Assembly: GCA_029263395.1 (NCBI GenBank)
Contig: JAJCXO010000221.1
Location: forward strand, 1 to 64,000
Reading direction: 5' to 3'
DNA length: 64,000 nucleotides
Source: Acidobacteriota bacterium
GTDB taxonomy: Bacteria > Acidobacteriota > Thermoanaerobaculia > Multivoradales > J023
Under the pieces are notes generated by a model, which was not told the origin of the DNA, searched no databases, and saw only the letters and a list, made by a program, of their open reading frames with translations. How positions within the stretch are numbered: the first letter of the stretch is position 1; every line of letters starts with the position of its first letter. Position numbers and translations under genes: made by a program. This document shows positions 9,969-26,032 of this stretch, piece by piece.

Positions 9969-10994
9969 TTACCCGTTCGTGTGCGATAGGGCTCGGGGCG
10001 CTGACAACTCGAGGATCGACTGACTCAGCTTTGCTGGATCGTGTCGAATCAGCTCACCGTCAGCGAGTAAATCTCGTTCCACTAACTCTACGCCACGGTC
10101 GGCCAAGGCGTCACGATCCGCGGTCACGAGTTGTGAGCCCGTTTCGGCGTAGTGATCGAGCAGTGGCTGCTCTGGCCTGGTGGCGTTGACCAAAATTGCG
10201 TCAACCAAACCCTTGCCCGCATGCTGCTCCACCGCCTCGAGATGCTCGAGGGCATCCATGTGGTCGGTTTCGCCAGGTTGAGTCATCAAATTGAGAATCA
10301 TCACGGTTTTTGCCGTGCTGCGACTGGTCGCCTCTCGAATACCGGGAATCAACAGATTGGGCAGCACCGAAGTGTAGAGCGAGCCTGGTCCGAGCAGGAT
10401 CAAGTCTGCGCTCTCCAACGCTCGGATCGAGGGCGAAAATGCCGGTATTGCGGCTGGCAACAGCTCGAGCTTCGTAAGCCGCTCTCCCGATTGACCCACC
10501 GCGGACTCACCCTCGTAGACACGGCCGGAGAGGCCGGTGCCTCGCAGGCGGATATCGTTGAGGGTCGCGGGGAGAATACGCCCACGCACCGACAAGATCG
10601 ATTCGGCGGTGAGGATCGCCTGATAAAAGTCACCCGTGACACCTGTCAGTGCGGTCAGAAAAAGGTTACCGAAAGAATGCCCTGTCAGCCCGACGCCATT
10701 AGCGAAACGGTACTGGAACAGTCGTGCCAGCAGATCTTCGTCATCAGCCAGGGCGACAATACAATTTCGAATGTCACCCGGTGGCAAGACGCCGAGTTCG
10801 CGTCGCAACCGCCCTGAAGAGCCGCCATCGTCGGCCACGGTCACCACCGCCGTCAGCCGATCTGGCGACTGGATGACATGCTTGAGGCCGCGCAAAAGCA
10901 CGGCCAAGCCGCTACCGCCGCCGATCGCAACCAGCGATGGACCGTCAGGCTCTTCTTCTTGATGTCGGGACGATGTTCTCGAGGAGAAAGTCAC
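9969..10994 (-). CDS. yvcK: YvcK/CofD-family UDP-GlcNAc-binding regulator
   Basis: Relative of Bacillus YvcK, which binds UDP-sugars and tunes carbon flow into cell-wall precursors. Seen directly: GGGSGLAVLLRGLK near the N-terminus, VTVADDGGSSGRLR, PPGDIRNCIVALA, GHSFGNLFLTAL, and LGPGSLYTSVLPNLL, all hallmarks of the YvcK branch rather than of CofD. I favour a GTG start at 10994, one base after the stop of the upstream gene. An ATG at 11060 would extend it by 22 residues with no family resemblance and overlap that gene by 65 bases. The position next to glmU and glmS fits a feedback role on UDP-GlcNAc, which is inference. Confidence 0.9.
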   Translation of the reverse strand: MTFSSRTSSRHQEEEPDGPSLVAIGGGSGLAVLLRGLKHVIQSPDRLTAVVTVADDGGSSGRLRRELGVLPPGDIRNCIVALADDEDLLARLFQYRFANGVGLTGHSFGNLFLTALTGVTGDFYQAILTAESILSVRGRILPATLNDIRLRGTGLSGRVYEGESAVGQSGERLTKLELLPAAIPAFSPSIRALESADLILLGPGSLYTSVLPNLLIPGIREATSRSTAKTVMILNLMTQPGETDHMDALEHLEAVEQHAGKGLVDAILVNATRPEQPLLDHYAETGSQLVTADRDALADRGVELVERDLLADGELIRHDPAKLSQSILELSAPRALSHTNG

Positions 10995-12732: not shown

Positions 12733-13177
12733 AGTGACCTCTCAAACGGGTGACCGAAAGGTATAGCACAGCCGTCCAGGAGCGTCAAAACTCCTTTGGA
12801 CAGCTCTGCTCGAGTGCCGTGCTCCGGGGATACCGGAATTCTCTGCTACCCGTTTCAGCGGAAGTCTATTCAACCGGCCGGTTGTGTTGGGAACCAAAGA
12901 CTGGTCACGACTCTGCTATTTTCATGGATTCGGCGCTTTACCGCAAGCACATCGGTGGTCCGTCTGGCGGTTTGCCAGCTATAGTCCCAATGAGTACGAT
13001 GCGATCGGCTACGGAGTCAGCTCTCTCGGCACCTTGGTTGAGCTTAGAATACGAGGTCTTCAACGGGTTCGAGTTTCGACGTTGGTCTAGCATCGATGGG
13101 TCTAGCATCGATAGTTGTGGTATGGGTCTGGCACCGATAGGTCTGGTAGCAATAGGTCTGGTAGCGATAAGCGAGGC
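12733..13177. other. intergenic region, divergent promoters and repeats
   Basis: 445 bases between mglB (minus) and the diguanylate cyclase (plus). It holds a perfect 14-bp palindrome CAACCGGCCGGTTG at 12871-12884, which could be an operator. A TATAGT box near 12980 and the 15-bp repeat at 13084-13169 are also present. No coding potential with family resemblance is visible. Confidence 0.5.
13084..13169. repeat. 15-bp tandem repeat upstream of GGDEF gene
   Basis: Five copies of a 15-bp unit close to GGTCTGGTAGCGATA start at 13084, 13099, 13125, 13140 and 13155. An 11-base interruption follows the second. The array is in frame with an upstream ATG/GTG of the next gene but ends before the start I prefer (13178), so it is probably leader DNA. 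Confidence 0.88.
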
Positions 13178-19159: not shown

Positions 19160-19566
19160 GATCGGGCTCCTTCCAAGGTGGCTCGACTGCTGGGGCGAAA
19201 CATCCGCCCGCGTGAGCACCTATAAACATATACGGGGCTCGCGATAAATCGGTCCACACCTGGAGAATGGCGCCTGGAGATCCCGCAAAACCACGCATCG
19301 AAAGCTCGGTCGGTCTTGTGGGCTGCGCCGCAGTTCCGGAAACTCGCCGGATCTCCCGCAACATGTCCAAGTTCTTGTGGTGCTAACGCATCCGAGATGC
19401 CAGCAGATGCGCAGCTCAAACACGCTCGCTGCTTGCTCGCTCCACAAGACCTCCCTCACCGAGCCGCCTATGGCAAAACGGGATGAGATCTAGAATAGGG
19501 CTGGCGCTATCGATCAGGGGGGTAATCGACTGACCAGGGATTGAGGCGGGGGAGGGTGAGAAAGGA
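19160..19566. other. csp leader and tRNA flank
   Basis: 407 bases without a recognisable gene. The part next to the cold-shock gene (19160-19260) would be its 5' leader, and cspA-type genes often have long structured leaders. A TATA-rich block near 19220-19240 is the best promoter candidate. Nothing else stands out. Confidence 0.35.
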
Positions 19567-24596: not shown

Positions 24597-25244
24597 ATGA
24601 AAGCCATCCACGCCATCCTCGCCGTTGCTATCGCCAGCCTTATCGGCTCTGCCTTCAGCTTTGCCGACGAAGACATCCACATCAAGAGCAACATCCAGAT
24701 CAAACTCGACGGTGACGCCGAGTTGATCTCCATTGACGCCGCAGACCTCGAAATAGGTGAGACCCACGAGAGCTACACCGACTCTGGCAAACGCGTCTTG
24801 CTCACCCGTACCGATGAAGGCCTCGAGCTCGAAGTGGACGGCAAGCGCATCGACGTTGGCATGTCTGGTCTCCACGGCGAGCACGGCGAAGGTCATCACT
24901 CGGTCTTCGTCCATGGCGATTCCGACGCCAAAGTCATCATCAAGAGCCTCGATGGCCACGGCAAGCACAGCCAACGGTATGCCTTCATCCAAGGTGATCA
25001 CGACTGCGAAGGCGACGAAGACTGCGACCATGGTCTACACCATTGGATCCAAGCGGGTGACGAAGATGTCGACATCGTCATCGAGCGCATCGGCGCCGCC
25101 GAACATCTCGAAGCCTCCGGCGTCCTCGACGACCTCGACGACGAAACCCGTCAACGCATCCTCGACACCTTGAACGAGATGCATCCTCGCATCATCAAGA
25201 AGAAGATTGTTGTGCACGAAGAAGTGCACGAAGGGGTCAACTGA
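24597..25244 (+). CDS. secreted His/Asp-rich protein, predicted sigma-54 target
   Basis: 215 residues, no family recognised. A signal peptide covers residues 1-23 (cleavage after FSFA). The mature part is rich in Asp, Glu and His: GLHGEHGEGHHSVFVHGDSD, GHGKHSQ, GDHDCEGDEDCDHGLHHW (two Cys). The C-terminal end is helical (LDDETRQRILDTLNEMHPRI) with KKKIVVHEEVHEGVN at the tail. This composition suggests divalent-metal binding in the periplasm. AGGAGG precedes the ATG by seven bases. Its own sigma-54 promoter lies upstream and a strong terminator downstream, so it is a single-gene unit. By layout it is analogous, though not visibly homologous, to zinc-binding ZraP. Confidence 0.8.
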   Translation: MKAIHAILAVAIASLIGSAFSFADEDIHIKSNIQIKLDGDAELISIDAADLEIGETHESYTDSGKRVLLTRTDEGLELEVDGKRIDVGMSGLHGEHGEGHHSVFVHGDSDAKVIIKSLDGHGKHSQRYAFIQGDHDCEGDEDCDHGLHHWIQAGDEDVDIVIERIGAAEHLEASGVLDDLDDETRQRILDTLNEMHPRIIKKKIVVHEEVHEGVN

Positions 25245-25298: not shown

Positions 25299-25335
25299 CC
25301 AAAAACATCGGAAGCCAAGCTTCCGATGTTTTTGG
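25299..25335. terminator. perfect rho-independent (bidirectional) terminator
   Basis: A 17-bp perfect inverted repeat (arms 25299-25315 and 25319-25335, CCAAAAACATCGGAAGC and its complement) has a three-base loop. The arms end in A5/T5, giving a U-tract in either direction. It lies 55 bases after the His/Asp-rich protein gene. Confidence 0.92.
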
Positions 25336-25480: not shown

Positions 25481-25644
25481 ATGAGTTGAGTTGAGCGGCC
25501 TTATCGCATGATGTCGGGTCGCCGATGCGTGGCTACTGCCTGGAGTTTCGCGGCTACTCAAGCTAGTGAAATGTTTGATTATTTCGTCTAATCAATCGCA
25601 CATTGGTCTTTTTGACCTGGGTAGAGCGCTCAAAAGTCCTGCCC

Positions 25645-25896
25645 AAGGCTTTCCGGACCGTCCTGGCAGTCTTTGGCAGAATGCCAAAAGGCCTGCGGAC
25701 CGTCCCAGAGGTCTTTGGCAGAATGCCAAAAGGCTTGCGGACCGTCTTGGCGGTCTTTGGCAAAATGCCAAAAGGCTTGCGGACCGTCCCGGAGGTCTTT
25801 GGTAAAACGCCAAAAGGCTTTCGGACCGCCCCGGAGGTCTTTGGTAAAACGCCAAAAGGCTTTCGGACCGTCCCGGAGGTCTTTGGTAGAACGCCA
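25645..25896. repeat. six-copy 42-bp palindromic tandem array
   Basis: GGACCG occurs at 25655, 25697, 25739, 25781, 25823 and 25865, an exact 42-bp period. Each unit contains a hairpin TTTGGCA-N3-TGCCAAA or a close variant. In the last copies C-to-T changes give TTTGGT...GCCAAA, still pairing by G-U on one strand. Copies differ at a few sites, mainly in the CCCGGAGG/CTTGGCGG segment. There are no unique spacers, so it is not a CRISPR. All units are open in one frame on each strand (14-residue repeats). Confidence 0.92.
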
Positions 25897-26032
25897 ATAA
25901 CGGGTGGGTTGATCAAGACCGTTATTTTCAAGGATGAAAAGTCCACGTGGGGCAGCTCCTCACCCCCGCCGGAGTGGGGAACCGAGGTAAGTGTGTGCCG
26001 CGATAGTCTCGACGGATGGCGGCTCCGGGCAG

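Follow-up and report, generated by a model that had tools for sequence, protein, structure and literature searches.

The array lies between two genes that both turn their 3' ends towards it, in a window of 64,000 nt (the whole stretch of DNA that was analysed). The features of the locus, with positions counted along the window, are as follows:

24597–25244, plus strand: left neighbour gene, 215 aa, without a Pfam family, its 3' end towards the array
25301–25333, plus strand: inverted repeat followed by a T run, read from the sequence as the likely terminator of the left gene and lying outside the element
25603–25644 (start about 25603), plus strand: terminal module on the left side of the element, TTGGTCTTTTTGACC...AAAAGTCCTGCCCAAGG, matching the left end TTCTTGGTCTTTCTGACC...AAAAGTTTTGCC common to the copies of a second genome of the genus (G001)
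25645–25897, plus strand: array of six 42-bp units, each with two dyad centres separated by 21 bp, as defined by TRF, a pattern scan and register analysis
25898–25934 (end about 25934), plus strand: possible decayed right terminus, ...TTGATCAAGACCGTTATTTTCAAGG, with a weak by-eye likeness to the G001 right ends ...GTTCAAGAA
26036–26746, minus strand: right neighbour gene, an OmpR-type response regulator (PF00072, PF00486), its 3' end towards the array; the gene also flanks an array in G001

TRF reported the array at 25645–25897 with a period of 42, 6.0 copies, 89% matches and a score of 350. A search with a 22-base core allowing up to three mismatches returned six matches, starting at 25655, 25697, 25739, 25781, 25823 and 25865, with all five intervals exactly 42 (mean expected matches, 0; six reached in 0 of 100 dinucleotide shuffles), confirming the six exactly spaced units of the initial annotation. 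The TTTGGCA/TGCCAAA hairpin arms noted there are also present, with Watson–Crick pairing in units 1–3 and a T (U) facing G, that is, G-U in place of G-C, in units 4–6. A periodic array that has one dyad also has a second, 21 bp further on, and both can be seen.

Judged from the ends of its relatives, the whole element extends beyond 25645–25896, starting with the left module at about 25603, and may continue through the decayed right one to about 25934. Oriented copies have a common left end (TTCTTGGTCTTTCTGACC...AAAAGTTTTGCC) and right end (GGCAAAACTTTT...GTTCAAGAA), both best preserved in G001, where three copies (L019, L021 and L022) consist of spacer-free 42-bp units between ends of the form TTCTTGG (TTTTGG in L022).../...CAAGAA; the right end of the window copy is decayed. 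Among 59 units of the same family (family I), 45 of 47 intervals are exactly 42 and the other two are 43; in the profile of those units A3, T18 and A24 are invariant and the motifs GGACSGTCC and GGYAAAAYG are nearly fixed. In arrays of family II the register is preserved in the decayed flanks. Further short tandem arrays occur in the window at 1461–1527 and 13084–13169, with periods of 14/28 and 15/26/41.

Dispersal and turnover in two species of one genus

A search for further genomic copies, as the initial annotation had proposed, revealed the window array to be one of many. BLAST with the array gave seven matches, the window included, in its own genome (G000; 10.68 Mb in 291 contigs) and six in G001, with no DNA match in 57 other genomes of the family and order, so that the family was found in two of 59 genomes. 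A model of the 42-position unit (R1) detected at least 11 places in G000 and six in G001 at E≤1e-3, at least one of them belonging to family II, and a second unit model (R2) placed family II at nine places in G000 and at least three in G001; these copy numbers are lower bounds, the best 150 candidates per genome having been scored. When the unit model was applied to 396 genomes of the phylum, the window's genome alone passed E 1e-5 among the best 16 candidates scored. A degenerate pattern gave three isolated single matches in GTDB contigs, in unrelated taxa and at about chance level by our estimate, and zero matches in viral contigs, both being collections from which the genus's own records may be absent; relatives of the repeat sequence outside the genus were dismissed on these results. 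The copies are multiple, intergenic and without an internal transposase, and some overlap predicted ORFs that are probably spurious. Gene ends flanking the copies are more often 3' ends (28 of 41, p=0.014, manual tally), with gene calls made by a simple composition rule that also served for the intergenic classing and the control genes below. Judged by these searches, the family is restricted to one genus in the genomes searched, and dispersed between genes.

The two genomes differ in where arrays are found. One G001 array (L019) adjoins the same response regulator as the window array, in a region about 80% identical over kilobases; at two further G001 arrays the neighbouring gene is conserved in G000 without an array there, and the far flank differs, so that these two G000 sites are not clean empty sites. 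Comparison of L014 and L018 with G001 met contig breaks or repeat-rich sequence. Similarity between copies covers much more than single units: L019, L021 and L022 are 80–84% alike over 345–365 bp in different gene contexts, L014 and L016 are 86% alike over 315 bp, and the family-II copies L065, L068 and L069 are 73–82% alike over 443–466 bp. The mean distance between units was 0.248 within arrays, 0.275 between orthologous arrays, 0.303–0.309 between arrays of one genome and 0.344 between genomes, a difference reached in 19 of 5,000 permutations of the genome labels. Units are homogenised within arrays and within a genome, and whole elements of about 315–466 bp have been copied to unrelated gene contexts, their presence varying between the two species. 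No target-site duplication was seen by eye at the element junctions. Because both genomes are drafts, arrays may be collapsed.

Coding potential and RNA structure of the units

The initial annotation had described open frames on both strands. The openness is not confined to two frames: five of the six frames are open across the window array, which a 42-bp unit without a stop gives almost automatically. One minus frame that is nearly free of stops (family I, 2 in 700 codons; family II, 0 in 448) might suggest a repeated peptide of 14 residues, such as GILPKTFRTVRKPF, read from the minus strand; in that frame few or no ATG codons occur among the copies listed, and the two 43-bp steps shift the reading frame. 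A test on single-nucleotide codon differences in 50 family-I and 32 family-II units gave observed/expected synonymous ratios of 0.86–1.17 in all six frames, none of which shows purifying selection, and on this result the coding repeat was rejected. The 127-aa ORF of the array has no Pfam match. We regard a coding role as very improbable, and we would caution that a 42-bp repeat which is open on both strands is uninformative about coding. A separate 42-bp array (L141:4659–5103), with units 98% alike, has two frames open throughout (one being LCELHTPELRFAEH) and may be a coding repeat.

A structured RNA with hairpins under selection was another of the options raised at the outset, on the view that G-U pairing had kept the hairpin in diverged copies. 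Whole elements do fold better than shuffled sequence (z −1.2 to −9.3 on the strand shown); most copies, however, fold strongly on both strands, which is what inverted-repeat DNA gives without any RNA function. The compensatory-change test proposed earlier showed no such change at either dyad in 59 family-I and 33 family-II units. The paired fraction equalled the column expectation in both families; in family I it was 0.605 at one dyad and 0.584 at the other, against 0.603 and 0.601 for the product of the column frequencies, and the arms therefore do not change together. An RNA hairpin under selection was rejected on this ground: what looked like maintenance of the stem by G-U pairs fails across the family. 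Over the window Rfam returned only a tRNA and no family above the gathering score for the array, and a stem beyond that of shuffled sequence was present in few of the consensus units, as described below; a structured RNA is accordingly very unlikely. A 43-bp array elsewhere (L172:1440–1697) has a 14-bp stem, AAAAACCCGTTAGAT.../...ATCTAACGGGTTTTT; in one unit of this array the two arms seem to have changed in a matching way, so that covariation may exist here as an exception.

Dyad symmetry and the recurrent 42-bp period

Palindromy varied among consensus units. A stem beyond shuffles (P≤0.05) was present in 5 of 23; for the window unit the stem gave P=0.14, and its dyad matches were reached by 6 of 300 shuffles. 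Two family-I consensus units had 26 dyad matches in 42 positions, compared with about 20 in shuffles (reached by 6/300 and 3/300), and among 14 consensus units the symmetry of seven was reached by at most 22 of 300 shuffles and that of the other seven by at least 90. The palindrome was thus rejected as a property common to all 42-bp families, being true of part of them. Read by eye, the unit profile has no conserved GTAG head, and its CGTC lies inside the dyad rather than forming an unpaired tag.

A scan for self-similarity at lags of 25–100, which uses no prior knowledge of the sequence, was conducted on 400 kb of G000 chosen without regard to arrays and on 464 kb from contigs known to hold them. 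In the 400 kb, lag 42 was the commonest, with seven arrays of mostly unrelated consensus sequence (five classed as intergenic and two overlapping predicted ORFs that may be spurious), followed by lag 30 (five arrays, in predicted genes), lag 84 (five, a harmonic of 42) and lag 45 (three). Over the combined 864 kb, of which 464 kb was from contigs already known to carry arrays, the intergenic periods were 42 (ten arrays), 41 (one), 43 (one), 32, 32, 36, 38 and 69. Four other genomes of the family and order, scanned over 660 kb, yielded no intergenic 42-bp array, one array at 32 and one of short period, and 139 kb of G001 away from the known arrays likewise yielded no intergenic 42-bp array. In a circular alignment of 12 consensus units, three pairs (I and II, IV and X, V and VIII) were alike to a degree clearly above that of shuffles, with no clear relation among the others; family III was linked to family I by BLAST. 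With only these links found, common ancestry of all the 42-bp families was rejected.

These observations bear on a protein-binding array, in which a dimeric nucleoid or topology protein would sit on dyads two helical turns (21 bp) apart and helical phase would hold the 42-bp period; BIME-2 arrays are held to bind gyrase. Several features would suit such a role: the almost unvarying interval in family I despite a divergence of about one third between the units of the two genomes, the excess of dyad matches in two of its consensus units, the invariant and near-invariant positions of the unit, the preference for gene 3' ends, and the recurrence of one period in several unrelated families. Against it, dyad symmetry is not general (half of the 14 consensus units lie within easy reach of shuffles), copies are absent from some matching sites of the sister species, and the binding protein is hypothetical. 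We consider this explanation rather unlikely.

RAYT-like transposases and the nature of the element

Searches with Y1_Tnp (PF01797) gave 18 matches in G000 and 16 in G001, and 22 genes from these 34 places were tested for neighbouring arrays. All 22 proteins keep the HUH motif, and most of the long ones also the Y motif YVLSNT/HGxKExLV; four long proteins (315–368 aa) match the NCBIfam model REP_Tyr_transpos with E 1e-10 to 2e-12, below its curated cut-off of 80 bits, and one short protein is of IS200/IS605 type. Tandem arrays of any period lay within 1.5 kb upstream of 11 of the 22 Y1 genes compared with 21 of 265 control genes, a set without other transposase types (p=1.8e-6), and downstream of 4 of the 22 compared with 19 of the 265 (p=0.086); less than 1.5 kb of sequence was available upstream for four genes (L178, L182, L188a and L191) and downstream for six. 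Without L072 and L176, which were known beforehand to hold related repeats, 9 of 20 Y1 genes retained an upstream array (p=3.6e-5), six of the 20 with periods of about 41–44 bp or twice that.

Some of these neighbouring arrays are related to dispersed ones. Family III, which lies about 1.1 kb upstream of a RAYT-like gene with an ORF between, shows homology to the window array (E 1e-14). The array beside L189 has its match in dispersed family XIII (E 7e-56), and one beside L186 in a dispersed 41-bp array (E 2e-17). No family-I array abuts an intact transposase gene; the closest cases are the related family III and, at L176, a remnant of two units with a truncated Y1 gene 0.47 kb downstream of it. 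Seven RAYT-like genes of type B1 share a 185-bp leader. Past it, most of them have arrays that differ from one another or no array, and repeats in common occur at L184 and L187 only; this speaks against a constant pairing of transposase and repeat. RAYT-like genes are also plentiful in relatives (29 matches in G006), in which 200 kb of scanned sequence contained no intergenic 42-bp array.

The leader, of about 185 bp, precedes every B1-type gene examined (L180, L181, L183, L184, L185, L187 and L190), is 72–90% identical to the L181 copy and contains AAAGATCGGA...TTTTCCGTCTT, perhaps an attenuator. A separate dispersed repeat of about 200 bp, seen at 19293–19466 of the window and at L020:10405–10604, has about 30 or more copies in G000 at 73–79% identity; its identity with the RAYT leader was rejected, the sequences being different, and it is also unrelated to the 42-bp arrays. 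Between array and 200-bp repeat at L020 (about 10225–10290, minus strand), a good ribosome-binding site, AGGAGGTG, precedes a very short ORF, MQVKTKVKAGFDLEDY, that could be a peptide precursor. RAYT genes are usually single-copy. The long RAYT-like gene type of G000 and G001 occurs in many copies at least 80% identical, together with fragments, and therefore looks recently mobile.

The element was compared with known systems. BOX elements of Streptococcus pneumoniae have a modular boxA–boxB(n)–boxC arrangement with variable middle units; their layout resembles that of the 42-bp element, with sequence and host unrelated. The BrickBuilt MITE of Porphyromonas gingivalis, as far as the available text of its report describes it, consists of tandem units without spacers, enclosed by a leader and a tail that have small inverted ends, and has intergenic sites (19 copies in one strain) and a narrow host range (PMC4596501), and the present element is alike in all of these respects. 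The two differ in that the BrickBuilt unit is 23 nt, whereas here the unit is 42 bp and many families have one period; moreover, the BrickBuilt TIRs look like the termini of IS elements in P. gingivalis, and TSDs accompany some of its copies, whereas here the nearby transposases are of the Y1/HUH type and no TSD was seen (PMC4596501). REP and BIME sequences with their RAYT (TnpA-REP) transposases are similar, in the parts of these accounts available, in that their repeats are palindromic and extragenic, form arrays of regular spacing close to RAYT-like genes and fall into several families per genome; unlike them, the 42-bp arrays lack a GTAG head, have a weak or absent stem in most families, show no consistent transposase–repeat pair and advance head to tail in steps of 42 bp (PMC2817692, PMC6006769, PMC8266576). 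TIRtrons (TIRYT), again from a partial account, combine RAYT-like genes with long TIRs, the TIR families being dispersed singly, as dimers or in clusters, and are reported from Acidobacteria among other groups, with a sharply defined TIRYT group there; RAYT-like genes and dispersed repeats are common to both systems, and tandem 42-bp arrays are not among the TIRtron features described in that account (PMC3733652). A literature search that left most subscription journals outside its reach, and is thus weak evidence of absence, found no published account of a genus with 42-bp arrays from several families.

Taken together, the data indicate that the window array is probably one copy of a dispersed minisatellite element that is specific to the genus, non-coding and non-autonomous, BrickBuilt- or BIME-like, and possibly mobilised or targeted by RAYT-like transposases. 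Among the three options initially offered, structured RNA, protein-binding array and selfish minisatellite, the last is the best supported, by the dispersed copies, the homogenisation, the variable presence and the restriction to one genus. The element would comprise two terminal modules of inverted similarity and, between them, 42-bp units in varying number, and it would be located between genes and often at gene 3' ends. Unequal crossing-over or slippage would increase the number of units, and the element as a whole would be spread in trans, the likeliest agents being RAYT-type Y1 (HUH) transposases. From the enrichment of arrays near their genes we infer that RAYT-like transposases are the likeliest agents, either as movers that have the arrays as substrates, the role assigned to REPs and BIMEs, or as insertions favouring arrays as targets.

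Ordinary neutral minisatellites arising locally could also leave array edges that decay in register, as observed, and both the 42-bp period and the nearness to transposases would then reflect gene-poor, repeat-rich regions, in which Y1 genes may sit. This account is distinctly improbable: elements with common ends have been copied to unrelated loci, 42 dominates the intergenic periods, and the enrichment is greater upstream (11/22) than downstream (4/22), though six genes had little downstream sequence.

Beyond the copied element itself, we tentatively suggest, as a possibility open to considerable doubt, a common 42-bp ruler in the genus, by which one machinery makes or maintains unrelated tandem arrays at one fixed step, the period being inherited while the sequence is replaced; in eukaryotic satellites monomer length is kept while sequence is replaced. 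Such machinery might be an HUH transposase acting on or inserting at arrays, or a protein reading four helical turns, and our guess is that the 42-bp step corresponds to four helical turns with a dyad every two. The upstream enrichment at RAYT-like genes would tie minisatellites, and not single REPs alone, to HUH transposases; and if it is true that the period rather than the sequence is kept, these arrays would allow the determinants of satellite unit length to be tested in a bacterium.
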